Part shown: positions 4,456-46,513 of the stretch, one piece after another
How the letters are laid out: the number at the start of each line of letters is the position of its first letter
Position numbering within the stretch: position 1 is the first letter of the stretch
Source of the DNA: a virus
IMG/VR virus record: IMGVR_UViG_3300037452_000083
Location: 1-46,513 of that record
DNA length: 46,513 nt
Direction: 5' to 3' (one strand)
Program-made: the position numbers and the translations under genes
The notes under the pieces: model-generated
The model's database searches: none
What the model saw: the letters and a program-made list of their open reading frames with translations, nothing else
What the model was told of the DNA's origin: nothing

Positions 4456-5937
4456 ATGTTTAGATTGTTGGTGGCCGCTTTAGTTTTAGTAATCTTAAGC
4501 GCCCCTGGATATGCGGGCGGTCGCGGTGGCCACAGCACAACTTTCGATCCAAACTCCTATGGAGGCGGCTGGAAAAACTTTATCGCCGACTTTGGCGCGA
4601 CCTGTAACGGCGTCGCGTCGGACGATACTGCGCTGGCGAGTTGGGCAGCTTATGGCGTAGGGCTCGGTGCTGCACAGGCCAAGCTTTACATTCCGCCAGG
4701 ATCGAAATGTGTATTTAGTTCCGGCTTTCTTGCTTGCGACAATTCTACAGGAACTAGCGCAAGCGGTATCCAAAACGCAATCGTGTGGGGCTACGGCGCG
4801 ACGGCGACCAATCTGCGCAATGGTTGCTATACGTTCTATGACGATAATCAGCATTCGGCTCGCGTCGCGACCGTCAACAGCGGGGCGACCGCGGTAACGC
4901 TCGTCAATTCCGGCGATGCCTCGAAATTTGCGGTCGGGAACTGGATCGCTATTGCCGGTCTAAGTTTGCAGATTGGCAGTTTCCCGCTCAATTTTCAATT
5001 GATCGAATATAAAAGGATCAATGGGATTGTTGGGTCTGTGGTTTCTTTGAGCACACCGCTCACGTTCACCTATCTCTCGACGTGGCCGGTCATTGCACCC
5101 AACGACACGTCGCAGGACTACGGTGGTCCGGCAACGATCTATCTGATGGTGCCGAGCTTCGACACCAATCTTACGGTGTTTGGCTTAAGCTCGACGACGC
5201 CAGGCAACGAAGTGACGATGAATGGCCGCACCGTCATTGTGTACGATGCCAACTATGTCGGGTGTTCACCATCTGCCGGTTCCTCGATCTGGCTTTTCAA
5301 CGTGAACTGCGCCGGTACGGAAATCGACAAGGATATTGAAAATCTCTATCTCGTTCGCAGCGCCGCTCACAATAATTGGACGATGCAGAGCGCGTCAGTC
5401 ATCAATTTTTGGTGCCAGCAATGCACCGGCAATTTCAGCGGCACCGTGCAAAACACCTATATCAGCGGCGGCAGCGGAAATGTCAGCATAGGCCCGAGTG
5501 GGTACGGCGTCGCCCAAAGCCTGACGGTTAATGGCTCAGTCGTCCCGGCTGCTGTGAACGTCGCATTTGGCCCCGGAGTTCCAACGACAGATTTTTCTTT
5601 CAGTTCTGGCGTTCTCTCCATCGCCAATAATTCCGCGAACATTTACAAAGCCTATGCTTGGGGCATTCCCGGTCACAGCTACTATTTCGGCGATACGGAC
5701 GGGAGTAACAATTCATCGCCTCAGACCCATTTTACAATAAGTGCCGTGACGCAGGATGCAACCAATAGCTACTTTACCCTCAGTTCATGCAGTTGGGGTT
5801 CGTGTGCCGGGTCGTTGCCGACGCCGACTTGTGGGGCCAATCCATCTTGCGCGAATTATATCCCGTATGGGGCGCAGGCTATCACACAAGATCGGTTCAC
5901 TGGTCCGGCGAACCTAACGCAGTTTCAGGCTCCATGA
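4456..5937 (+). CDS. Secreted tailspike-like protein, pectate-lyase-type N-terminus
   Basis: The ATG at 4456 gives 493 residues; an in-frame GTG at 4438 would overlap the previous gene more. Residues 1-20 form a signal peptide (cleavage near GYA). Then comes NFIADFGATCNGVASDDTALASW, rendered here as the DFGA-x-x-NGV-x-DDT-A start motif of right-handed beta-helix pectate-lyase-3 domains. The body is rich in Gly/Asn/Ser and fits a parallel beta helix, as in tailspikes that bind or cut polysaccharide. The presence of a secretion signal on such a protein is odd. No catalytic residues could be assigned. Confidence 0.7.
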   Translation: MFRLLVAALVLVILSAPGYAGGRGGHSTTFDPNSYGGGWKNFIADFGATCNGVASDDTALASWAAYGVGLGAAQAKLYIPPGSKCVFSSGFLACDNSTGTSASGIQNAIVWGYGATATNLRNGCYTFYDDNQHSARVATVNSGATAVTLVNSGDASKFAVGNWIAIAGLSLQIGSFPLNFQLIEYKRINGIVGSVVSLSTPLTFTYLSTWPVIAPNDTSQDYGGPATIYLMVPSFDTNLTVFGLSSTTPGNEVTMNGRTVIVYDANYVGCSPSAGSSIWLFNVNCAGTEIDKDIENLYLVRSAAHNNWTMQSASVINFWCQQCTGNFSGTVQNTYISGGSGNVSIGPSGYGVAQSLTVNGSVVPAAVNVAFGPGVPTTDFSFSSGVLSIANNSANIYKAYAWGIPGHSYYFGDTDGSNNSSPQTHFTISAVTQDATNSYFTLSSCSWGSCAGSLPTPTCGANPSCANYIPYGAQAITQDRFTGPANLTQFQAP

Positions 5938-25935: not shown

Positions 25936-26730
25936 TCAGGCTCCAGACCGTGCGGGCTTATCGACAAACATGTCGCCTTGTTTCAGCGCTTCGCTGATCC
26001 GGCGGCAGGCCGTGTCGAAGTATTGGGGTACGATTTCCATGCCGACGAACGGAAAGCCGAGCTGAATAGCGGCAACTCCCGTCGATCCGCTGCCCATGTA
26101 GGGATCGACGATGATCGTCTTGCGCGGCAACTGCATCTGACCGATGCACCATTTCATCAAAACGACCGGCTTTTGCGTCGGATGGACTCGTTGTTGCCCG
26201 GCGGTCACCTCATCGCGGGCCGCAGAGCCGACACAGACGCCGTCCCAAAGCAGCCGATAAATGCGCATAGGGCGGCTTGCGCCGCTCATCCATGCGGCTT
26301 CGCCGTCTCCTTGATCGCGCACCTTGCCGGTCGGGACCTTATCCCAGACCAGCCACGAGCCTGCAGGGAGGCGTTCCGCAAACTTATGTGCGCCCCAGAA
26401 AAGAGAACGCGGAGACACACTCAGCCAAGGATCAGGATCGAACGGTTCGTCGTCTCCGACAATGCCATCTGGCCACGCAATTGCTTGCCCGGCGCTATGC
26501 AGCGCGCCGGTCGCTCGAGCCCTTTGTACGTTCGCGACCGCACGAGAACCACAGCCGGGTGTCACTGCTCGAATGCCGCCAGCGTGAGCGACGTTTGTAT
26601 TTTGCTTCTGCCCATAGGGCGGATCGGTGACGATTGCGCGCTCGCCGTGGACCGCCGGCAAGATCACAGCGTTGTCTCCCAGATATAGGATTACGCCGTC
26701 TGCAATTTCTTCTTTCCGAACCTTCAACAT
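25936..26730 (-). CDS. DNA methyltransferase (N6-adenine or N4-cytosine)
   Basis: 264 residues. Catalytic motif IV DPPY at residues 36-39, motif X HPTQKP at 183-188 and the AdoMet-binding motif DPYMGSGST at 209-217 occur in the order typical of beta-class methyltransferases. It is shorter than CcrM and lacks CcrM's C-terminal region. Orphan: no restriction nuclease nearby. Likely protects phage DNA from host restriction or alters host methylation-dependent gene control, notable because the phage also encodes GcrA-type regulators. Confidence 0.9.
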   Translation of the reverse strand: MLKVRKEEIADGVILYLGDNAVILPAVHGERAIVTDPPYGQKQNTNVAHAGGIRAVTPGCGSRAVANVQRARATGALHSAGQAIAWPDGIVGDDEPFDPDPWLSVSPRSLFWGAHKFAERLPAGSWLVWDKVPTGKVRDQGDGEAAWMSGASRPMRIYRLLWDGVCVGSAARDEVTAGQQRVHPTQKPVVLMKWCIGQMQLPRKTIIVDPYMGSGSTGVAAIQLGFPFVGMEIVPQYFDTACRRISEALKQGDMFVDKPARSGA

Positions 26731-28239: not shown

Positions 28240-28334
28240 GGCAATCTCTTCTGCTGCTGCCGAATGCACATCGCCGCATACACGACCAGCGCAATCGCGA
28301 TGACGGCCAAGAGTGGCTGCAGCGGTTCGGTCAT
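28236..28334 (-). CDS. 32-residue single-span membrane peptide
   Basis: A short ORF with one hydrophobic helix (PLLAVIAIALVVYAAMCI) and a basic tail. Its ATG overlaps the stop of the multi-HTH gene and its stop overlaps the next ATG, so three genes are translationally chained. This chain is the best evidence that it is real. Confidence 0.55.
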   Translation of the reverse strand: MTEPLQPLLAVIAIALVVYAAMCIRQQQKRLP

Positions 28335-29365
28335 GGCAAGAGCTGTCCTTTGCTGCGCAATCGATTGATCTTGCCCAAGATAGCATTACGGGTGAATGGC
28401 GGCCCAAGAATATCGGAGCATTGCTGTGCGGTGCTGCCATTGAACCACATGGTTTTCAGCCGCGCGACCACTTCATCGGTCCAGATGCTTTCAGGATCGA
28501 CCCAAACCTTTTTCGGCCTTGGCTCTGCTGGGGGACTTGAAACAGCCGCCGCAAAATCTGTCGTGACCGTGCCATTCAGCCGCTGCTTGGAATGCTCTAT
28601 CAGATCGGGCATATAGCAGCTGACAAAGTCAGGCAAAATACGTCCCAGCCCTTCATTCATCACCTGTTTATCTATGGCGCGCCAACTCATGCCCGCAGCG
28701 CGCAATTCGCGAGCTCGGTCTATGCGTGGTTGTCTATCGCGCCAGCGGCCATGTTTGATTTCCACCCCAGCCTGCTTGCAAGCAAACTGAATACAGAAGG
28801 CCCCCGATGGGAGCACGCCGGGATATTTTTTCTCTAGCTGGCGACGGGCCTCGTTGATTGAAAATCCTTGCCGCACCAACTCAACGCCTTCGACCAATAT
28901 ACCAGCGCGCTCATTGCGGATTGCGGCTTTTATCTCCGCAGCATGAGATTGCGCCGCCTCTCGTTGAAGGCGACGCTGTTCTTTGACTAAAGCCGTAGTG
29001 CCGGTAGGCCGCAAAATCTGTTCGACGCGCTGCTGCGACACACCGTACTTATCGGCCAGCGTGCACATATTTTCTTCGCCACGCTCGTAGGCGGCAACCA
29101 TCGCGATATTGCGCTCGGCGGTTTCTTGAGTTCGCGGTCCAAAGTGCTGCGGCGGTCGCGGTACACCGGCGGTCAATTGACGAATTGTTAATTTGCTGAG
29201 CTTGTACTTTTCAGCAAGGGCGGCCGTTGACATGCCGGCCATTCGATCGGCGCGAATTTGCTCGTTGCGGGCGAGGGTCCATGGCCGCGAGCCTGCCGGT
29301 GGCCCGGACCGTTTCTGTGGCTGCGAAGCTGGCGTCGATCCGAAAATCTTGGACAGAATGCTCAT
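28331..29365 (-). CDS. Multi-HTH regulator with C-terminal GcrA-type domain
   Basis: 344 residues from ATG 29365; the in-frame GTG 15 bases upstream lies in the promoter. At least three HTH-like repeats are visible: near residues 35-65 (MSTAALAEKYKLSKLTIRQL), 90-125 (MCTLADKYGVSQQRVEQIL) and 210-235. The end (about residues 297-340: WTDEVVARLKTMWFNGSTA, then TRNAILGKINRLRSKG) is the GcrA N-terminal DNA-binding pattern. The order is reversed compared with GcrA, where this domain comes first. It heads the first leftward transcription unit, so it is probably an early regulator. Confidence 0.7.
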   Translation of the reverse strand: MSILSKIFGSTPASQPQKRSGPPAGSRPWTLARNEQIRADRMAGMSTAALAEKYKLSKLTIRQLTAGVPRPPQHFGPRTQETAERNIAMVAAYERGEENMCTLADKYGVSQQRVEQILRPTGTTALVKEQRRLQREAAQSHAAEIKAAIRNERAGILVEGVELVRQGFSINEARRQLEKKYPGVLPSGAFCIQFACKQAGVEIKHGRWRDRQPRIDRARELRAAGMSWRAIDKQVMNEGLGRILPDFVSCYMPDLIEHSKQRLNGTVTTDFAAAVSSPPAEPRPKKVWVDPESIWTDEVVARLKTMWFNGSTAQQCSDILGPPFTRNAILGKINRLRSKGQLLP

Positions 29366-29371
29366 ACGCCC

Positions 29372-29399
29372 ATAATGCACATGCCAGCCGCATTGTCAA
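29372..29399 (-). promoter_or_regulatory. Leftward promoter of the multi-HTH gene, probably leaderless
   Basis: On the minus strand a perfect TTGACA (29394-29399) and CATTAT (29372-29377) stand 16 bases apart (17 to ATTATG). The expected start of transcription falls at or next to the ATG at 29365, so the mRNA would have almost no leader. No Shine-Dalgarno sequence is present. Confidence 0.75.
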
Positions 29400-29408
29400 C
29401 GATGCTAC

Positions 29409-29436
29409 TTGCATTTATTTTTGATGTGTGCATATT
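29409..29436 (+). promoter_or_regulatory. Rightward promoter of the XRE-GcrA unit, probably leaderless
   Basis: TTGCAT 29409-29414 and CATATT 29431-29436 are 16 bases apart; transcription would begin close to ATG 29443. ATGCACAT (29375-29382) and ATGTGTGCAT (29424-29433) are nearly inverted copies, one on each -10 region, and may be operators. Confidence 0.55.
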
Positions 29437-29442
29437 CGCGAC

Positions 29443-29649
29443 ATGGTGACCAAAACACAGGTCAGGCTGACGCGAAAACGCTTAGGCGAAAGCCAAGCCG
29501 ACTTCGCCAAGCATTTCAAAGTCAACCAAAGCACCATCCACCGCTGGGAAACTGGCAAGCTGCCGATCGAAGGCATCATCGAGATTGGCGTCGAGGCAGT
29601 GCTGGCGCGGCTGGCTTATATCTTCGTCGAGCAGCAGGCCGCCGAATGA
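29443..29649 (+). CDS. XRE-family HTH regulator
   Basis: 68 residues from the first ATG (29443); an in-frame GTG at 29428 lies in the promoter. VRLTRKRLGESQADFAKHFK and VNQSTIHRWETGKLPIEG give a full HTH_3 domain (residues about 7-45). It is divergent from the multi-HTH gene and may control both promoters, like a Cro/CI switch. Confidence 0.85.
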   Translation: MVTKTQVRLTRKRLGESQADFAKHFKVNQSTIHRWETGKLPIEGIIEIGVEAVLARLAYIFVEQQAAE

Positions 29650-30125
29650 GCAACCAATATCCCGACTCCTGGACCGCCAGCCGCATCGAACAGCTCAAGA
29701 CCTACGCGGCCTCGGGCCTGCCCATGCGCGACATTGCTCGCAAGCTTGGCATCACCCGCAACGCCGTGCTGGGCAAACTGCATCGGCTTGGGCTGCCCCT
29801 GGGCCGGCAACCCAACCCTGACGGCACAGCCCATAAGCGTCGGCCGGTCCCACGTGTTGCCAAAATACAACTCTTTGACGGCTGGCGGAAGCCGCGGCAG
29901 AGCCACAGGGAAGCCCCTGGGCCGTCATTGGTGCCGGGACTGTGCGATCTGCCGCCCGAGACCGCAGCCGCGCCGGTGACGATCGTGGGGCTATTGCCGC
30001 ACCATTGCCGCTGGCTCTTGGGCGAGCCAGGGGTGGATATGCTGTATTGCGGTGCAGCAAAACTAGAGCCGTATTCGTACTGCGCCCGGCATTGCGCTGT
30101 TGCATTTAAGCCACGGGGCGGGTGA
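29646..30125 (+). CDS. gcrA: GcrA-family cell-cycle regulator
   Basis: 159 residues, start in ATGA overlap with the XRE gene. The N-terminal HTH (W9, then LPMRDIARKLGITRNAVLGK at 25-44) and the C-terminal Cys/His set (HHCRW C121, YCGA C135, SYCARH C146/H149) are the two halves of GcrA. In Caulobacter and rhizobia GcrA joins sigma70 RNA polymerase at promoters with CcrM-methylated GAnTC sites. The linker is basic. A phage GcrA could redirect host transcription or tie phage expression to the host cell cycle. Confidence 0.88.
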   Translation: MSNQYPDSWTASRIEQLKTYAASGLPMRDIARKLGITRNAVLGKLHRLGLPLGRQPNPDGTAHKRRPVPRVAKIQLFDGWRKPRQSHREAPGPSLVPGLCDLPPETAAAPVTIVGLLPHHCRWLLGEPGVDMLYCGAAKLEPYSYCARHCAVAFKPRGG

Positions 30126-32189: not shown

Positions 32190-32371
32190 CCTACGCTACG
32201 CGCCGCGACTGCAAAGGCCCGGAGACAATCCAATCGCGCTACGAGGCGGCGTGCTTCAAATACCTGCGGTACGTGTTTGCCGGCGAGGAACCGTGGCGGG
32301 TGCGGGCGGCGGCTCGGGACGTGTATAAATATTCGCCGTGGCATGTGCTCAAATCGGAGACGGTGCATTGA
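32186..32371 (+). CDS. Small hypothetical protein
   Basis: 61 residues, ATGA overlap with the previous gene. Basic/aromatic (YEAACFKYLRYVFAGEEPW), and ends in TTGA overlap with the cupin gene. Unknown family. Confidence 0.7.
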   Translation: MTYATRRDCKGPETIQSRYEAACFKYLRYVFAGEEPWRVRAAARDVYKYSPWHVLKSETVH

Positions 32372-32886
32372 CGATCGAGCTCAAACGCCAATCCCCGGAA
32401 GTCTATTTTGCGGTCAATCCCATCACCGCGATCGGGCCGGCGGAAATCGAATTCCTCAAGAACGCGGCGTACCGCTCGCTGCGGCAGCGTTGCCGCATTT
32501 GCCTGCATCTGAGCGAGGATGCACTGCTGCACGAGACGGTGCTGGTCTACACCAAATCGACCTACAACCGGCCGAACCGGCATCCGATGGCCGAGAGCTT
32601 TCACATCCTTGAAGGCAAAGCCGATGTCCTGTTTTTCAACGAGAATGGCACGCCAGACAAGTTCCTGCGCATGGGGGACGCGGTGTCGGGACATCCCTTC
32701 ATCTGCCAGTTTCCAGTGATGGTCTATCACACCATAGTCGTGCGGTCGAAATGGCTGGTGATCCACGAGACCTGCCGTGGGCCGTTCGTACGGGGCGAGA
32801 CCACACTGTATGCGCCGTGGGCACCGGATGAGACGGACCATGATGTGCCGGACTTCCTGGCTAAACTCGAAACCTACTGCAAATGA
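32368..32886 (+). CDS. WbuC-type cupin-fold metalloprotein
   Basis: 172 residues from TTG 32368 (TTGA overlap with the previous stop); an in-frame GTG at 32338 overlaps more. The core RQRCRICLHLSEDALLHETV, then YNRPNRHPMAESFHILEGKA and VLFFNENG is the WbuC cupin pattern, with HxxxE-type metal ligands at about H72 and E76. WbuC proteins sit in bacterial O-antigen and capsule clusters. Here it begins a three-gene cassette with an SDR and a sugar C-methyltransferase, which supports a nucleotide-sugar role. Confidence 0.8.
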   Translation: MTIELKRQSPEVYFAVNPITAIGPAEIEFLKNAAYRSLRQRCRICLHLSEDALLHETVLVYTKSTYNRPNRHPMAESFHILEGKADVLFFNENGTPDKFLRMGDAVSGHPFICQFPVMVYHTIVVRSKWLVIHETCRGPFVRGETTLYAPWAPDETDHDVPDFLAKLETYCK

Positions 32887-33533
32887 CCCGCAGCCTCATC
32901 ATCGGCGCCACCGGCGGCATCGGGCGCGTGGTCTGCGCCACACTGGCGGCTCGCGGCGACAGCATTGTGCCCATGGGCCGCGAGCGCACCGGGCAGGATT
33001 ACCCGGAAACCGTCAGTTACATCGTGTTCCTGCAGCGCAATCGCGAATCCGAGAACGCATGGATGCACGAGTTCAACATCAGCCTGGACCTGACCAAACG
33101 CATTGTGGAGCTGATGGCGCCGCGCTTCGTGGGCGCAGACAAGGCCATCGTGATCGTATCGTCGGTCAACGCACAACTAATCAACAATCGGCTGCCGATC
33201 GGCTATCACATGGCCAAGGCCGCGCTGAAATCCATGTGCCGGTATTGGGCGGTTGAGCTCGGGCCGAAGGGCATCCGGGTCAACTGTGCGGCGCCGGGCA
33301 CTGTCCATAAAGGTGGCCCGGAGTGGCCCAACAAGGCGTTTCATGAGCGGATCACGCCGCTACGACGCATGGGGACTGCCAACGAGGTCGCCAGCGCGAT
33401 CGCGTTCCTGGCCTCGCCGGCTGCGTCATTCGTGACGGGGCAGGTATTGACCGTGGACGGCGGCGTGAGCCTACAGTGGCAGGAGAGCCTCACCAATGAG
33501 TTATTACAAGCGCACCACATGCCGCCTGTGTGA
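32883..33533 (+). CDS. Short-chain dehydrogenase/reductase
   Basis: 216 residues with the Rossmann motif GATGGIG (8-14), catalytic Ser 93/94 and the YHMAK pair (Y108, K112). The C-terminus (TGQVLTVDGGVSLQ) is the classical SDR ending. Likely uses NAD(P)H to reduce a keto sugar, as inferred from its neighbours. Starts in ATGA overlap with the cupin, and overlaps the methyltransferase by 38 bases. Confidence 0.88.
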   Translation: MTRSLIIGATGGIGRVVCATLAARGDSIVPMGRERTGQDYPETVSYIVFLQRNRESENAWMHEFNISLDLTKRIVELMAPRFVGADKAIVIVSSVNAQLINNRLPIGYHMAKAALKSMCRYWAVELGPKGIRVNCAAPGTVHKGGPEWPNKAFHERITPLRRMGTANEVASAIAFLASPAASFVTGQVLTVDGGVSLQWQESLTNELLQAHHMPPV

Positions 33534-34839
33534 TTCCACTCACCTGACGCTGGCGCTGCACTACCCGCCGCAGCCGCTGGCGGACAATTACCAGCGCGAT
33601 CCTGCTCAATGGCAGGTCGATCACGGGATATGGCAGGTTTACCCGCTCGACCTGTATCTGTGCGACGACTGCGGCTGCGCGCAATTGCTGGACGTGGTGT
33701 CCGCGGACGAGATTTATCCGCATTACACCTACGAGACCGGTTCTAGTTCGGCATTGGTGGAGCATTTTCGGCAGTATGCGGCCGATGTTGTCGAGCGGGC
33801 AAAACTGCGGCCGTATCAATTCGCAGTCGATATCGGCTCAAACGACGGCACATTCGGGCTGTTCTTGAACAAGGGCGGCTACCACCAAATACCCTTCATC
33901 AGATGCTTTGGCGTAGTGGCGAGCGCCCGCGCAAAATCCTCAACCGTATTGAGCAATGGTCGGCCGGTATTGGGAGTTGATCCAGCTCCGCTGAACACTC
34001 GTGGACTGCCCACCATCAAACAATTTTTCAACGCAGAAACCGCCGGCTTAATCCAAGCAACTTATGAGCGCCCCGGTCTCATCACGGCCAACAACGTCTA
34101 TGCCAACATCGACGATCTACGCAGCTTCACCGAGGCGGTGCGCAATTTACTGACACCGGATGGTGTGTTCGTGTTCGAGACATTCTACCTGGCCGATCTG
34201 ATCGACCACATGGTATTCGATTTCATCTACCACGAGCACCTGACCGCGTTCGCGTTGTCGCCGCTGATCGGCTTTTTCCAGCGGCTGGGGATGCAGGTAT
34301 TTGATGTGCAGCGCGTGGCCACCAAGGGCGGCAGCATCCGCGTCTATGTGCAGCACGATTCGGGTAAGCGGCCGGTGAGCTCGGATGTGCCGGCATTGGT
34401 GGAGTGGGAGTATTTACGGGGGCTACACAAGATAGAGACGTTCAAACAATTTCAGGAGAGATTTGAACACGCCAATTATAGAACTGAGGAATTGCTGCGG
34501 GTTCTAAAAAATAAAGACAAAACCATCTGCGGGTACGGAGCGTCGCCAACATCAACCACGCTGATCTATACCAGCGGCATCGGCAAACATTTGGACTACC
34601 TGATCGACGATTGGTTGGGCAAGCAAGGCACGTTCAGTCCGGGGCTGCATTTGGCGGTCAAATCACCGGCCGAGCTCGATGCGGATTATTGCATCATCCT
34701 GGCCTGGCGCTATGCCGACCAGATCATGGCCCGCAATCCGCAATACCGCGGGACGTGGGTTGTGCCGTTGCCGGAATTGAGGGTGATCAACGCTGCAACA
34801 GCACGATCGCCAATATCAGCAGCACAACCACGACAATAA
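33496..34839 (+). CDS. TylCIII-type nucleotide-sugar C-methyltransferase carrying an 81-bp inserted repeat
   Basis: 447 residues with AGGAGAG before the ATG. Domains: N-terminal zinc module (C9, C12, C56, C59; CRLC...CDDCG), AdoMet-binding class I domain (VDIGSNDG 111-118, then GVDPA about 160-164), and C-terminal Methyltransf_14-type domain (GYGASPTSTTLIYTSGIG, then VDY-like DYLIDD, and a VVPLPEL end). These enzymes add a methyl group to C-3 of NDP-keto-sugars. Residues about 128-154 come from an 81-bp copy of XRE-gene DNA inserted between motif I and the acidic loop; activity is therefore uncertain. Confidence 0.88.
   Translation: MSYYKRTTCRLCDSTHLTLALHYPPQPLADNYQRDPAQWQVDHGIWQVYPLDLYLCDDCGCAQLLDVVSADEIYPHYTYETGSSSALVEHFRQYAADVVERAKLRPYQFAVDIGSNDGTFGLFLNKGGYHQIPFIRCFGVVASARAKSSTVLSNGRPVLGVDPAPLNTRGLPTIKQFFNAETAGLIQATYERPGLITANNVYANIDDLRSFTEAVRNLLTPDGVFVFETFYLADLIDHMVFDFIYHEHLTAFALSPLIGFFQRLGMQVFDVQRVATKGGSIRVYVQHDSGKRPVSSDVPALVEWEYLRGLHKIETFKQFQERFEHANYRTEELLRVLKNKDKTICGYGASPTSTTLIYTSGIGKHLDYLIDDWLGKQGTFSPGLHLAVKSPAELDADYCIILAWRYADQIMARNPQYRGTWVVPLPELRVINAATARSPISAAQPRQ
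33875..33955. repeat. 81-bp direct repeat, recipient copy inside the C-methyltransferase
   Basis: Identical to 25310-25390. The flanks differ at once on both sides (33874 G against A; 33956 A against G). It keeps the methyltransferase frame open because 81 is 27 codons and no stop occurs in the antisense reading. Confidence 0.97.
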
Positions 34840-37395: not shown

Positions 37396-37429
37396 GCATT
37401 GGATATGGCTAATCACATTTGCGTGATAG

Positions 37430-37666
37430 TCATAATGTCCAGAGTTTAGAACAACTTGTGCAGCGGAATTTCCTGCCGGGTCGACTGAATATTTGCCCGT
37501 AATGGCCACAGGTGCAGGTCAGCCAAACCCAACCGCGTAAATTATCGCGTGGCTGCCTTAACTCATTGATATATTTGCTGTTATCAATCTCACTCTGTTG
37601 CGATGCATGAGATTGGTGGCGGCTGCGATCCTTGGCCCAATTCAGTGCCATTGCGCAGATTATCAT
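37430..37666 (-). CDS. Zinc-ribbon small protein
   Basis: 78 residues from ATG 37666 (ATG 37651 is an alternative; an upstream in-frame start at 37759 would read through the terminator hairpin). C-terminal CTCGHYGQIFSRPGRKF then CTSCSKLW forms a zinc ribbon. First gene of the second leftward cluster, just downstream of a promoter-terminator unit. Confidence 0.6.
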   Translation of the reverse strand: MIICAMALNWAKDRSRHQSHASQQSEIDNSKYINELRQPRDNLRGWVWLTCTCGHYGQIFSRPGRKFRCTSCSKLWTL

Positions 37667-37676
37667 GCTGCGATAC

Positions 37677-37715
37677 AAAAAGAAGCCCGGTTCGGCGGTG
37701 AGCTCGAACCGGGCT
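37677..37715 (-). terminator. Strong intrinsic terminator or attenuator
   Basis: A perfect 11-bp stem (AGCCCGGTTCG 37684-37694, CGAACCGGGCT 37705-37715), 10-base loop, then TCTTTTTG on the minus strand (37676-37683). It lies about 40 bases after a leftward promoter and directly before the first gene of that unit. Confidence 0.85.
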
Positions 37716-37718
37716 AAA

Positions 37719-37746
37719 CTGCACTGTGCTTCGACGGCTGGTGCAG
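37719..37746 (-). ncRNA. Putative short leader RNA between promoter and terminator
   Basis: From the promoter at 37759-37787 (start near 37752) to the terminator the transcript would be about 75 bases. It contains a first hairpin (CTGCAC 37719-37724 / GTGCAG 37741-37746, 6-bp stem) and then the terminator hairpin. This could be an attenuator, antiterminator RNA or small RNA. Confidence 0.4.
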
Positions 37747-37758
37747 CGACAAGGGCCA

Positions 37759-37787
37759 AACATACAAGCCCTAGTCAGTCAAATCAA
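37759..37787 (-). promoter_or_regulatory. Leftward promoter of the second small-gene cluster
   Basis: Minus strand TTGATT (37782-37787) and TATGTT (37759-37764) with 17-base spacing. Confidence 0.55.
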
Positions 37788-38153
37788 GCCGTCAGCCCGG
37801 CCAAGTGCCGATCGAGCCGCACACAGCATCGCTCACCAGCGGGCATTGGCGCGTCCAATGGGTGGAGACGGCGGGAACTTACCGTGACAGAGCACGGCCT
37901 TCCGACCGCAGCAAATGCCGTGACGGGCTATGCTGGCATCTGTGGGCATTAATGGCGCTGTAGAGTGCGATGGCAGCTAATAGCTGTGGTCAGGGGATTG
38001 ACCCTCCATATCGGGTATCCACAGGTATACCGTCTATCGTCACGCCAGTACCGCACGGCCCAAGCGTAGCGAGTATGGGCCAGGCTTGCGGAAGCGGAGC
38101 TATGGCTGATTAGCTCATTCCGCCCACACATCGCATAACGAGCGTGGGGAACG

Positions 38154-38194
38154 CCTGACACGTCAGGTTAAACCTTACATAGCACATGCTATGT
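38154..38194. promoter_or_regulatory. Two adjacent dyad operators
   Basis: CCTGAC-AC-GTCAGG (38154-38167) and ACATAGCA-CA-TGCTATGT (38177-38194) are perfect inverted repeats with 2-base centres, 9 bases apart. TTGACA follows at 38197-38202. They look like binding sites for a homodimeric regulator such as the phage XRE proteins. Confidence 0.6.
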
Positions 38195-38323
38195 CATTGA
38201 CATTGCTGCACAATCGACCGAATGTTCCATAATGGTAGTTATGCGAACGCCACAGCTAAGCCGTTGATATTGCTACACCTGGCGCGGGTTGGCTGCCGGG
38301 CTGGTCATGGGCAAGCATGCTTA

Positions 38324-38351
38324 GGGGCCGGCATGGGGGTGGGGGAGGGGG
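38324..38351 (+). other. G-quadruplex motif
   Basis: Four runs GGGG, GGGGG, GGGGG, GGGGG at 38324, 38335, 38341 and 38347, separated by 7, 1 and 1 bases, a canonical quadruplex pattern on the plus strand. Confidence 0.75.
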
Positions 38352-38414
38352 ACTTTGCGGCGCGCTCGAAACTCGATCTGCCCGCTCTGACACGCGCCGG
38401 TTTTTGCCAATTCC

Positions 38415-38434
38415 ATGTTGCATTTCAGCAACAT
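38415..38434. promoter_or_regulatory. Dyad next to the TGTAC array
   Basis: ATGTTGC (38415-38421) and GCAACAT (38428-38434) form a perfect 7-bp inverted repeat with a 6-base centre, 7 bases before the array. Confidence 0.55.
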
Positions 38435-38441
38435 ACGCGAT

Positions 38442-38487
38442 TGTACAATAATGTACCTTAATGTACATTGGGGTACAGCACTGTACA
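38442..38487 (+). repeat. Five TGTAC hexamers in exact 10-bp phase, upstream of terS
   Basis: TGTACA at 38442, TGTACC at 38452, TGTACA at 38462, GGTACA at 38472 and TGTACA at 38482: five hexamers each 10 bases apart, so all lie on one face of the helix. The array ends 53 bases before the terS start. Its design recalls the P1 pac site, with repeated hexamers bound by the terminase small subunit, and iteron arrays. Confidence 0.8.
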
Positions 38488-38540
38488 CTGTTGCATAAAT
38501 GTCACTTGAAACATAACTTTTGTATGCTAATTGTGGCTAA

Positions 38541-39068
38541 ATGGCCTCCAAGCAGGTTCTTGATGAACTCTACGCTGGCGACCCGGAGGACTACGGGCCG
38601 GCCATGCAGGCTTTAGAGCCTCAACGGCAGGCGTTTGTGAACGCGCTACTGGACCAGCGGGGCAGGCCCGATCTTGGACAGGCGGCCATTGCTGCGGGTT
38701 ACAGTGACCATCCAGGGACCTGCCGCGTCACCGGTTACCATTTGGCGCGCAATCCAAGGATTATTGCTGCACTGCAAGAGGAAAGTCGGCGGCGGTTCAC
38801 GATCGCTGGCTGGATGGGGGTGATCAATCTGATCAAGATCGCCGAGGATGACACTCACAAGATGCATTACAAGGCTTCGGTCGAACTCGCCGACCGCTTC
38901 GGCTATGCGGCCGTGACCGAACACACGGTGAAGGTCCAGCACACCGACCTCACCGGCCAGGCGATCCTTGAGCGAATCCGGGCACTGGCGGTGAAGCACA
39001 AGATTCCCGAGGCCACGCTGCTGGGCGGCAATACCATCGAGGCTACGGCCACGGAGTTGAAGGAATGA
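38541..39068 (+). CDS. terS: Terminase small subunit
   Basis: 175 residues. Residues 25-75 give the N-terminal HTH of Terminase_2-type small subunits (LEPQRQAFVNALLDQRGR, DLGQAAIAAGYSDHPGT, HLARNPRIIAAL). It recognises the packaging site and hands DNA to TerL. The ATG has no Shine-Dalgarno sequence, so it may be leaderless. The phased TGTAC array stands right upstream. An intervening 97-residue gene separates it from terL. Confidence 0.85.
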   Translation: MASKQVLDELYAGDPEDYGPAMQALEPQRQAFVNALLDQRGRPDLGQAAIAAGYSDHPGTCRVTGYHLARNPRIIAALQEESRRRFTIAGWMGVINLIKIAEDDTHKMHYKASVELADRFGYAAVTEHTVKVQHTDLTGQAILERIRALAVKHKIPEATLLGGNTIEATATELKE

Positions 39069-39358
39069 ACCGACATTCAATGGACCTCAATGATCCATCT
39101 ATGTTTCGCGCGGGCGGTCTGCTGCTGCCCGGCCCCGACCGGGTGCATATCCAGGTGGGCAAGAACCCGGACGGCTGCTGGTACATCGACCTGCGCGGCC
39201 CTACTGGCCCAACCGGCAACATCCGCTCGGTGATGACCCCGCTGCAGATGTTCAATCTGTGCACGCAGACGCTGAGCCACATGGGGTATGCGGTGGAGTT
39301 CAAGCCGCCGGGCAAGGATAGCTACGATGTGATGGTCGAGGAAGCTAACCGGGCGTAG
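39065..39358 (+). CDS. Small hypothetical protein between terminase genes
   Basis: 97 residues, AAGGA site, ATGA overlap with terS and one-base overlap with terL's GTG. Beta-rich N-half (GPDRVHIQVGKNPDGCWYI) and helical C-half (PLQMFNLCTQTLSHMGY). Unknown family; conserved position suggests a packaging accessory. Confidence 0.75.
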   Translation: MNRHSMDLNDPSMFRAGGLLLPGPDRVHIQVGKNPDGCWYIDLRGPTGPTGNIRSVMTPLQMFNLCTQTLSHMGYAVEFKPPGKDSYDVMVEEANRA

Positions 39359-40830
39359 TGGTAAAAATGGCACAGCCGAGCCTCGCCGAACTGAAAGAAA
39401 CCCTCGCAGTTCTTGAGGCGATCGACTACCGCAAGACTTATCAACAGTTTTTTTACTTCGAGCCGTATGAGAAGCAGAAGCAGTTCTTTGCGCTGGGCGC
39501 CACGAAACGGGAAAGACTGCTGACCGCCGGCAACCAGCAGGGCAAGACCCACGCGGGCGGCTACGAGACCACGCTGCACCTGACCGGTCTTTACCCCGAT
39601 TGGTGGCGCGGTCGCCGGTTTGTCCACGCCACCAAGGGCTGGATTTGCGGGGAGACCTCCACCGCGGTTCGGGACACCCAGCAAAAGAAGCTGTGCGGCG
39701 AGGCCGGTGTGGACGAGCTGTTCGGCACGGGGCTGATCCCGAAAGACAAGTTTGTCGACAAGCCCTCTTTGGCGAGAGGTGTGACAGATGCCTACGATAC
39801 TATTCAAGTCAGGCACGTCTCGGGTGGTATTTCTATCGGGCGATTTAAGTCATACGAGCAGGGACGAACAAAATTTCAAGGTGAAACCCTCGATTGGGTT
39901 TGGGACGACGAGGAATGCCCAATCGACATCTACTCCGAGCAGCTCGCGCGCATCACCGCTACCAAGGGGATCATCTACACCACCTTTACATCGATGCTGG
40001 GCGAGACCGCGTTGACGGATCGGTTTCACCGCGATCAGTCGGCCGACCGCGGCATGGTGCAGATGGGGCTGATCGACGCCAAGCACATCCCGGAGGCCGA
40101 ACATGCCACGATCATTGCTGGTTATCTGCCTCACGAGCGCGTGGCTCGTGTGTATGGCGGCATCATGCGGGGCGAGGGACTGGTTTTTACTACCCCGGAA
40201 GAAACCCTCAAGGAAGAACCGATTGTCTCCATCCCGCCATTTTGGGTTAAAATCTGGGGAATAGACTTTGGCATCGGCCACCCATTCGCGGCGGCATTAC
40301 TGCTGTGGGACAGAGACGAGGATGTGATCCATGTCCACACAACTATCCGAATGGCTGATGCACTGTCGATCGTGCATGCGGATTCTATCAAAAGAATTGG
40401 GGCTGATGTTCCAGTGGCTTGGCCACGAGACGGAACGGAGCGTGACAGCCACTCAGGTGAGCCGCTGGCATCAATCTACAAAAAGCACGGTCTCCACATG
40501 CTGCCCGAGCACGCCACCTGGCCGGAAGGCGGATTGAGCACCTATGCGGGCGTCAAGGAGATGGACGAGCGCATGAAAACCGGCCGCTTCAAGGTGGCCA
40601 ATCATCTCAATGAGTTCTTCGAGGAATACCGCAACTATCACTACAAGGACGGCAAGATCGTCAAGGTGCGCGACGATATACTGTCCAGCGTGAGAATTGG
40701 CCTGATGATGAAACGATTCGCCCGCTCGGTGCCGCTGGGCGGCTTCCGAGCCAAACGTAACGACCCGCGGATGCGGTTTGCCCGCGGCTCACCACTGCAT
40801 CCCGATGGGGATGGCAATATCTTCGGATGA
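39358..40830 (+). CDS. terL: Terminase large subunit
   Basis: 490 residues from GTG 39358 (ATG 39367 is an alternative). ATPase Walker A GNQQGKTH at 58-65, Walker B LDWVWDDE at 178-185, coupling motif TTFTSMLGET about 208-217, and nuclease start WGIDFGIGHP with D303. It pumps and cuts concatemeric DNA during head filling. Size is normal for Terminase_6/T7-like-virus large subunits of alphaproteobacterial podoviruses. Confidence 0.93.
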   Translation: MVKMAQPSLAELKETLAVLEAIDYRKTYQQFFYFEPYEKQKQFFALGATKRERLLTAGNQQGKTHAGGYETTLHLTGLYPDWWRGRRFVHATKGWICGETSTAVRDTQQKKLCGEAGVDELFGTGLIPKDKFVDKPSLARGVTDAYDTIQVRHVSGGISIGRFKSYEQGRTKFQGETLDWVWDDEECPIDIYSEQLARITATKGIIYTTFTSMLGETALTDRFHRDQSADRGMVQMGLIDAKHIPEAEHATIIAGYLPHERVARVYGGIMRGEGLVFTTPEETLKEEPIVSIPPFWVKIWGIDFGIGHPFAAALLLWDRDEDVIHVHTTIRMADALSIVHADSIKRIGADVPVAWPRDGTERDSHSGEPLASIYKKHGLHMLPEHATWPEGGLSTYAGVKEMDERMKTGRFKVANHLNEFFEEYRNYHYKDGKIVKVRDDILSSVRIGLMMKRFARSVPLGGFRAKRNDPRMRFARGSPLHPDGDGNIFG

Positions 40831-45215: not shown

Positions 45216-46407
45216 CGTAGCCGCGCTCGGCAACCGCGCCGTGGTGCAGATGCTTGAGGAAGTCCTGGCCGAAGCCCGCAAGGGCAAGATGAACCATTGC
45301 GCGGTGATCATGTCGATCATGGGCCAGGACCCCGGCTTTGGCGTTGCCGGCGAAGTCTGCATGGGCGACGTGTGCAAGCGCGGCATTGTCGAGTTGATCA
45401 AGTCGATCGACGGCCGCGCCAGCAACGGCATCATGCCGCCGCGCGACGAGACATTGGGCGACGATTATGTCTGCTACAACATGGTGGTCAGCCCGGTTGC
45501 GTTCGATTTTCTGTTCTGGCTGGTCGACGCGGAAATGCGCCGCATTGCATCGGGTGCGCCGGCCCCGCTCAAGGTAGCGTTCTGGAAAGGCCAGGATGGC
45601 ATCGGCCGGCTCAACGAACCGATCATGCGGCAGTTCTACGACAACGTGATGCGGCCGTTATTGCCCATGATCGGCGCGGTCGAGGTCGATCATCGCAAGT
45701 TCATGGGCCGCTGCAAGAACCTCTATGTGCCGCGGGATATCGTGAACTACTGTAACGAGGGGCAGTCTGTTCCGAAACTGAAAGCGCCGCCCGGCTCCAA
45801 GCTGGAAGTGGCGTTCTGGCTGCACAAGCGCGGCATCGTCAATCCTGTCACCATCACATTGCGCGAGGCCCAGCATTGGGATCACCGCAACAGCAATATC
45901 GAGGCGTGGCTGCGATTTGCCGCCGACCTGAAACGCAAGGGCGAGCAGGTTGTGTTCGTGCGCGATACTCGCCGTGCCATGGAGAAACTGAAAAGCGAAA
46001 CAACCTATCCCGAGGCCGCGATCGACCTGCGCATTCGCACCGGATTGTACGAAATGGCCAAGGCCAATCTGTTCGTGGCCAATGGCCCGGCCGCGCTGGC
46101 GCTGTTCACCGAGCGTCCGATGTTCTCGCTCACGCCATTGGAAGATGAAGGTCACACGTATTTTCCGAACACGCCATCGTTCTGGACCCAGCACATGGGC
46201 ATCACCCCGCCCGCGCAGTTCCCGTGGCTCAAGCCGGATCAGTTCCTGGTTTATGAGCACGACACCTACGAGAATATCTGCGCGGCATGGGAGCGAATGA
46301 CCGACATCTTGACCAAATCTGAAATCTATGAAACTAATCACGCTGTTGACCTGAGTGTTGCCGAGCCCCGCAAGGATACGTTCGGTCAGGTGTTGCAGCC
46401 CCGGTAG
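45196..46407 (+). CDS. Glycosyltransferase-like protein of the surface-polysaccharide type
   Basis: 403 residues from ATG 45196. VVSPVAFDFLFWLVDAEMRR (near residue 97) and later VTITLREAQHWDHRNSNIEAW, then RTGLYEMAKANLFVANGPAAL resemble a GT-B-like protein that I recall from capsule and LPS clusters (pattern: TFDF-x-x-FL-x-x-AE-x-x-R ... ITLRE-x-x-x-x-x-RNSN-x-x-AW ... NGP). It lies between the scaffold and the major capsid gene, where T7-like phages have no such gene. It may glycosylate the capsid or host surface. The C-terminal end crosses the terminal repeat. Confidence 0.55.
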   Translation: MSEKRDDVAALGNRAVVQMLEEVLAEARKGKMNHCAVIMSIMGQDPGFGVAGEVCMGDVCKRGIVELIKSIDGRASNGIMPPRDETLGDDYVCYNMVVSPVAFDFLFWLVDAEMRRIASGAPAPLKVAFWKGQDGIGRLNEPIMRQFYDNVMRPLLPMIGAVEVDHRKFMGRCKNLYVPRDIVNYCNEGQSVPKLKAPPGSKLEVAFWLHKRGIVNPVTITLREAQHWDHRNSNIEAWLRFAADLKRKGEQVVFVRDTRRAMEKLKSETTYPEAAIDLRIRTGLYEMAKANLFVANGPAALALFTERPMFSLTPLEDEGHTYFPNTPSFWTQHMGITPPAQFPWLKPDQFLVYEHDTYENICAAWERMTDILTKSEIYETNHAVDLSVAEPRKDTFGQVLQPR

Positions 46408-46513
46408 CCCGATCCGGCTGTTTGTTATCTGAACGCAAGGCCCTCGTTAGCGCGAGAACCGCCGAAACTTGCTTCGTCTGGTCCCTGCAGTAGCAGACTC
46501 GACCGCCAGATCG
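46387..46513. repeat. Terminal direct repeat, right copy
   Basis: Same 127 bases as 1-127. See left copy. Confidence 0.95.

Follow-up and report, generated by a model that had tools for sequence, protein, structure and literature searches.

The window, by which we mean the whole stretch of 46,513 nucleotides analysed (IMG/VR record IMGVR_UViG_3300037452_000083), contains a terminase operon preceded by a noncoding region with several distinct elements (Table 1). At the left is a conserved noncoding module, which includes a dyad and a G-run element, and this is followed by a second dyad, an array of five hexamers, and a predicted weak promoter. The operon itself contains terS, a small gene of no family match, and terL.

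Table 1. Features of the terS upstream region and packaging operon (positions in the window).
Feature	Coordinates	Strand	Basis
Conserved noncoding module, left of the array gap	38160..38410	.	DNA identity to relatives
Dyad TTCCATAA-N6-TTATGCGAA	38222..38247	.	Best-conserved 26-bp stretch within the module, present in all near relatives
G-run element GGGGGTGGGGGAGGGGG, the window's form of A[AT]AGACCGGGG...	38334..38351	+	Family comparison
Dyad TGTTGCATTTCAGCAACA, left border of the array gap	38415..38432	.	Direct sequence; putative function
Five phased palindromic hexamers, 10-bp period	38442..38487	.	Direct sequence, shuffle test, core-versus-spacer test
Predicted weak terS promoter TTGCAT-N17-TAACTT	38491..38519	+	Comparison of relatives
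terS, small terminase subunit, N-terminal HTH, PaP3/NV1-like	38541..39068	+	PHROG 51/641, AlphaFold2 model, profile match
Conserved 97-aa protein between terS and terL, no family match	39065..39358	+	80–83% identical in L005, G001, G002
terL, large terminase subunit, Sf6/P22/PaP3-type	39358..40830	+	Family match

The two ends of the record share an exact 127-bp repeat (positions 1–127 and 46387–46513), and because this overlap matches the assembly k-mer size we regard the record as a closed circle of 46,386 bp and not as a linear fragment; several complete relatives are likewise circular, with end overlaps of 120–127 bp. The contig ends of relatives, which seemed to cluster upstream of terS, were considered as physical ends and rejected, as among the near-complete contigs checked the majority are circles whose overlaps have the size of a k-mer. 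The phage is a podovirus belonging to a family of apparently alphaproteobacterial podoviruses; the host assignment is suggested by the GcrA-like, Mor/C-like and XRE proteins that it encodes together with a strong depletion of GANTC in the genome (65 sites versus about 172 expected). For GTAC the deficit is slight (78 sites versus 97 expected), and a GTAC-recognising phage methyltransferase, considered by analogy with P1, was dismissed on these counts. A DNA methyltransferase gene (25936–26730) and a gene for a Mor/C-like plus GcrA-like protein (28331–29380) are on the minus strand, and a second GcrA-like protein is encoded on the plus strand (29409–30125); with the GANTC depletion, the methyltransferase and GcrA-like genes possibly constitute a phage copy of the CcrM/GcrA circuit. 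Further to the right, an ORF of unknown family, a short-chain dehydrogenase and a C-methyltransferase form a cluster (32338–34839) that is probably involved in sugar modification. In the next 3.6 kb or so, few convincing coding sequences are present. Scans of the window revealed no Rfam family and no tRNA.

The AlphaFold2 model of TerS is a helical HTH structure (pLDDT 87), and the profile of its family matches the TerS proteins of PaP3 (6w7t, E=1e-16) and NV1 (7joq, 3e-13). Foldseek with the same model gave a weak result (best E 0.8, with the SF6 DNA-binding domain and NV1 TerS ranked second and third), so the homology claim rests on the profile search. The 97-residue protein encoded between terS and terL is retained even where the terminase differs, as in G001.

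The conserved module shares 87–89% DNA identity with G003 and G001 and 71–76% with G002 and G004, and it is ∼87% identical in G001 (L137) although the TerL proteins are only 41% identical. Its 26-bp dyad is inverted in G006, the genome of L008. At its end the module has the inverted repeat CGGCGCG...CGCGCCGG and then TTTTT, which together resemble a terminator; the repeat is absent from the terminator scan list, its loop being longer than the scan permits. L006, L005 and G001 have dyads similar to TGTTGCATTTCAGCAACA in the corresponding position. Between the module and terS is a hypervariable gap of ∼130 bp in which the array sits. Whereas the window has five TGTACA units here, L006 has homologous flanks, exactly one ATTGTACAAT at the homologous place, and a different TerS HTH; the gap of L005 is much shorter and lacks TGTACA, and those of L004 and G001 are of unrelated sequence. 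To the right of the array, the block TGTTGCATAAAT...CATAAC is common to the window and L006 only. The retention of the module in G001 beside a divergent TerL places a mosaic junction exactly at this gap.

The hexamers TGTACA, TGTACC, TGTACA, GGTACA and TGTACA start at 38442, 38452, 38462, 38472 and 38482, exactly as in an initial annotation of this DNA, and the last ends 53 bp before the terS ATG. That annotation described five TGTAC hexamers, which holds for four, the fourth being GGTACA. To it we add their palindromic nature: TGTACA is self-complementary, such that every unit of the array is both a palindromic site and a direct repeat, and in the first and third units the palindrome is perfect over 10 bp (ATTGTACAAT and AATGTACATT). 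The 10-bp period, noted previously as placing each hexamer on the same face of the DNA, withstands a statistical comparison. When the noncoding stretch 37401–38540 was searched for five 6-mers at fixed periods of 7–24, the best array scored 28/30, at period 10, and none of 1000 dinucleotide-preserving shuffles reached that score (maximum 26, typically 22). A genome-wide scan for phased TGTAC x3 returned a single site, which is this array. Minority letters occupy 2 of 30 hexamer positions versus 9 of 20 spacer positions (Fisher P=0.0036, in a small sample of five units). The array thus has palindromic repeats in helical phase with the core kept over the spacers, as in activator or operator arrays.

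Repeats of this kind can also arise neutrally: slippage would have multiplied one ancestral ATTGTACAAT, the state seen in L006, and the copies would now be decaying. The single copy in L006 and the hypervariability of the gap agree with such an origin, and most 10-bp TGTAC arrays in genomes are slippage repeats: among 145 TGTAC x4 arrays in bacterial genomes, the majority have conserved spacers and are simple tandem repeats. The spacer conservation of the array described here, counted by hand, is 0.60, among the lowest of the 145; its divergence sits in the spacers and not in the hexamers (P=0.004, small sample), and the exact period of 10 and the self-complementary units have the look of binding sites. 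Because conservation is restricted to the hexamers, the array is not a plain slippage repeat. The low spacer conservation makes neutral duplication less credible, though only to a degree given five units, and we would call it improbable. TGTAC x3 scans of viral sequences and x4 scans of genomes were also tried as a means of defining a family, and were abandoned because the matches were mostly due to chance or slippage; phage and plasmid records searched by BLAST with the array region gave nothing useful.

An HMM for terS identified 73 loci including the window, and the TGTACA array is present in none of the other 72 terS loci; conservation of the array with TerS, which the initial annotation set as a check, was not seen. 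The array is a real, lineage-specific array of phased sites, and its identification as a helically phased, putatively protein-binding array is well supported by the statistics. To place it among other arrays, 684 kb of terS loci were scanned for four copies of one 6-mer at a fixed period. At period 10 there are four such arrays, all of them ≤460 bp upstream of a terS: those of the window, L183 (TGTAAA), L207 (TGTTTC) and L174 (CAGAGC, lying within a 20-bp tandem repeat); the other periods from 7 to 14, with multiples of three excluded, gave 0–2 matches each. One-turn arrays are therefore rare but tend toward this intergenic region, with differing words. The arrays of L207 (TGTTTCA x4, 5010–5046) and L183 (TGTAAA x4, 507–545) are both upstream of terS, and that of L207 adjoins a leftward gene cluster, as an operator would. 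Dispersed motifs, CGCAACAATCTTGCG and ATCACG-N4-CGTGAT, are found upstream of terS in L169, L164, L199, L202, L358, L183 and L366, which have different TerS proteins. Elsewhere, an actinomycete MAG (L267, 5946–5996) contains TGTACA x5 at 10-bp spacing with divergent spacers, directly before a gene that we take, by eye and not by family search, to encode a Phd/YefM-type antitoxin.

Direct repeats one turn apart, in a noncoding region and beside a conserved module, could also be iterons or part of an origin, bound by a replication initiator, and this was a possibility raised in the initial annotation. However, no initiator was recognised among the proteins scanned, the region lies directly before the packaging operon, the five sites cover merely 46 bp, and the relatives keep the conserved module and not the array; we consider such a role very improbable.

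The sequence TGTTGCAW-N17/18-TAAC is common to the window, L004, L006 and G001 just upstream of terS, and from this comparison we infer a promoter with TTGCAT at 38491, TAACTT at 38514 and a start near 38526. Sigma70-like promoters (z>1) are found directly before terS in 42% of the family versus 20% of control regions. A PWM scan of the window favoured ATGTCA-N18-TATGCT over TTGCAT-N17-TAACTT; with the former as promoter the sites move by one turn yet stay phased. If TTGCAT-N17-TAACTT is the promoter, the site centres would be at −41.5, −51.5, −61.5, −71.5 and −81.5, the standard register of activators that touch RNA polymerase. Weakness would be expected of a promoter that relies on an activator.

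Our tentative preference is that the array is a lineage-specific, cooperative regulator platform for terS or late transcription, and it is more probably a gene-control element than a packaging start signal. Each TGTACA palindrome would be one regulator site, and the 10-bp period would set adjacent protomers on one helix face in mutual contact, with the last protomer abutting the −35 box of the weak terS promoter. The likeliest effect, the sign of which we infer, would fall on the packaging operon late in infection, as activation or switched repression, and the binder may be a phage or host protein of the HTH or RHH class. Regulator binding is supported by the retention of the hexamers while the spacers diverge, by the palindromic units, and by their exact abutment to the putative −35 box. 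L006 supports it as well: although its TerS HTH is of another type (33% to that of the window), it retains ATTGTACAAT and, downstream, the promoter block TGTTGCATAAATRNCACTNGANNACATAAC of the window, which occurs nowhere else. Further support comes from the enrichment of sigma70-like promoters before terS in the family, from the established use of TGTACA as an operator core (YefM/Axe, PMC7730913), from the one-face spacing of the RelB hexads (PMC2812701), from the array before the antitoxin-like gene of L267, and from the presence of candidate regulators in the phage. Against it, the promoter was picked by comparison and not by score, and there is a single array in a single genome. The candidate regulators encoded by the phage are the XRE, Mor/C-like and GcrA-like proteins, none of them tied to TGTACA; the XRE and Mor-like genes were not found in the partial record of L006 and therefore do not follow the site there. 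The window ORFs scanned gave no RHH or Phd domain, and there is no other TGTACA regulon in the phage.

A packaging role for the array, as a pac or cosB-like element on whose phased hexamers the TerS HTH ring would dock, with TerL cutting nearby, is possible, but we do not favour it and think it somewhat unlikely. The array is directly before terS and unique in the genome, the four period-10 arrays of the terS loci share this general position, and the circular assemblies are consistent with headful packaging. L006 lacks both the array and the HTH type of the window's TerS, while the promoter block, the module and the C-terminal half of TerS are common to both. Among 55 dereplicated loci, in which 6-mer sharing was compared with protein identity, the 130 bp before terS covary with the HTH half of TerS (Mantel rho 0.21, 0/500 permutations) and not with the C-terminal half (rho 0.02); further upstream than −130, covariation with the HTH disappears. 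However, the two halves of terS correlate about equally well (0.19 vs 0.21), and because they do so, physical linkage can explain the HTH correlation. Moreover, L004, L005 and L006 have a common HTH type (66–84%) and no common spacer motif, L006 keeps one TGTACA although its HTH is of another type, and the nearest HTH relatives, L203 (54%) and L148 (49%), beyond which no closer TerS was found, lack a TGTAC array. As to precedents, the pac of SPP1 has direct repeats across the terS promoter that SF6 has not conserved, and the DNA-binding domain of SF6 TerS is indifferent to pac repeats (PMC4737164), while the homologous TerS of PaP3 binds one 20-bp cos and not an array (PMC7672466). The pac function suggested in the initial annotation thus loses ground through the absence of the array from all 72 other loci, the site in L006 with another HTH, the lack of a common spacer sequence in L004, L005 and L006, and the single cos of PaP3; what is well supported in that annotation is a phased candidate binding array, and not the specific pac or iteron function. 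A more elaborate version strikes us as unlikely: the array would be a modular TerS landing site, a phased palindromic pac that moves jointly with the DNA-binding domain of TerS and leaves the promoter, the upstream module and the TerS core in place, so that this podovirus family would exchange packaging specificity as a cassette.

A better candidate than the array for a common packaging or terminator signal is the G-run element A[AT]AGACCGGGG(T)GGGG..., because it is common to phages with different TerS proteins. It usually lies 120–230 bp before terS (e.g. L169, L161, L154, L148) and is often followed by a C-run able to pair with it. Of 62 upstream regions, 35 contain the first seven bases of the element on the plus strand and none on the minus strand; of 62 control stretches, 2–3 contain them. 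It is a candidate packaging site, terminator or G-quadruplex. A likeness of the PaP3 cos to a conserved ACGCGG element was also considered and rejected, since cos scores only 13–14/20 anywhere in the window.

If TerS binds the array, a small terminase of the PaP3 type would have a clear, repeated recognition site, which is rare, and recognition modules would be seen to swap with the TerS HTH. If a regulator binds it, the array would point to regulation of the packaging operon in alphaproteobacterial phages, whose late-gene control is, to our knowledge, little known. The A[AT]AGACCGGGG element may be a more general packaging or terminator signal.

Comparison with known systems reveals partial likenesses. 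The P1 pac also has several six-base palindromic repeats (TGATCA/G) tied to the small terminase gene, as the array is 53 bp before terS. The P1 hexamers, however, are inside pacA, are Dam GATC sites, and form two groups across 161 bp with IHF (PMC10028697), whereas the window has one strict 10-bp array that is GTAC-centred, contains neither GATC nor GANTC, is upstream of terS, and is absent from relatives. In SPP1/SF6 the pac direct repeats span the terS promoter and gene start and are not fully conserved between close relatives, which recalls both the position of the array and its poor conservation, but there the boxes form three sets and the cut has been mapped, and the SF6 TerS DNA-binding domain has no preference for the boxes (PMC4737164). 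PaP3 has a homologous TerS and a related TerL, and differs in that its cos, at position 1 of its genome and 1.96 kb upstream of its terS, is a single asymmetric 20-bp site with no repeat array (PMC7672466).

In sequence the array resembles the operators of YefM-YoeB and Axe-Txe, which have an identical TGTACA palindromic core and multiple sites at the promoter (PMC7730913). Taken with the TGTACA array before the antitoxin-like gene of L267, this raises the idea that a host Phd/YefM-type antitoxin binds the array and couples terS expression to the host toxin–antitoxin state. We think this highly unlikely, as the YefM cores are paired at 12-bp spacing and overlap their own toxin–antitoxin promoter before the antitoxin gene (PMC7730913), whereas here there are five cores at 10-bp spacing, the downstream gene is terS, and neither a Phd/YefM-type gene nor any other toxin–antitoxin gene was recognised in the phage. 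In geometry it resembles relO, where the RelB hexads [A/T]TGT[A/C]A follow one another every 10 bp or so along one face of the DNA (PMC2812701); these differ in being four hexads arranged as two palindromic half-sites and autoregulatory, no RHH gene having been found in the phage ORFs scanned. The array belongs to a known general kind of phased site array, in a form confined to one lineage.
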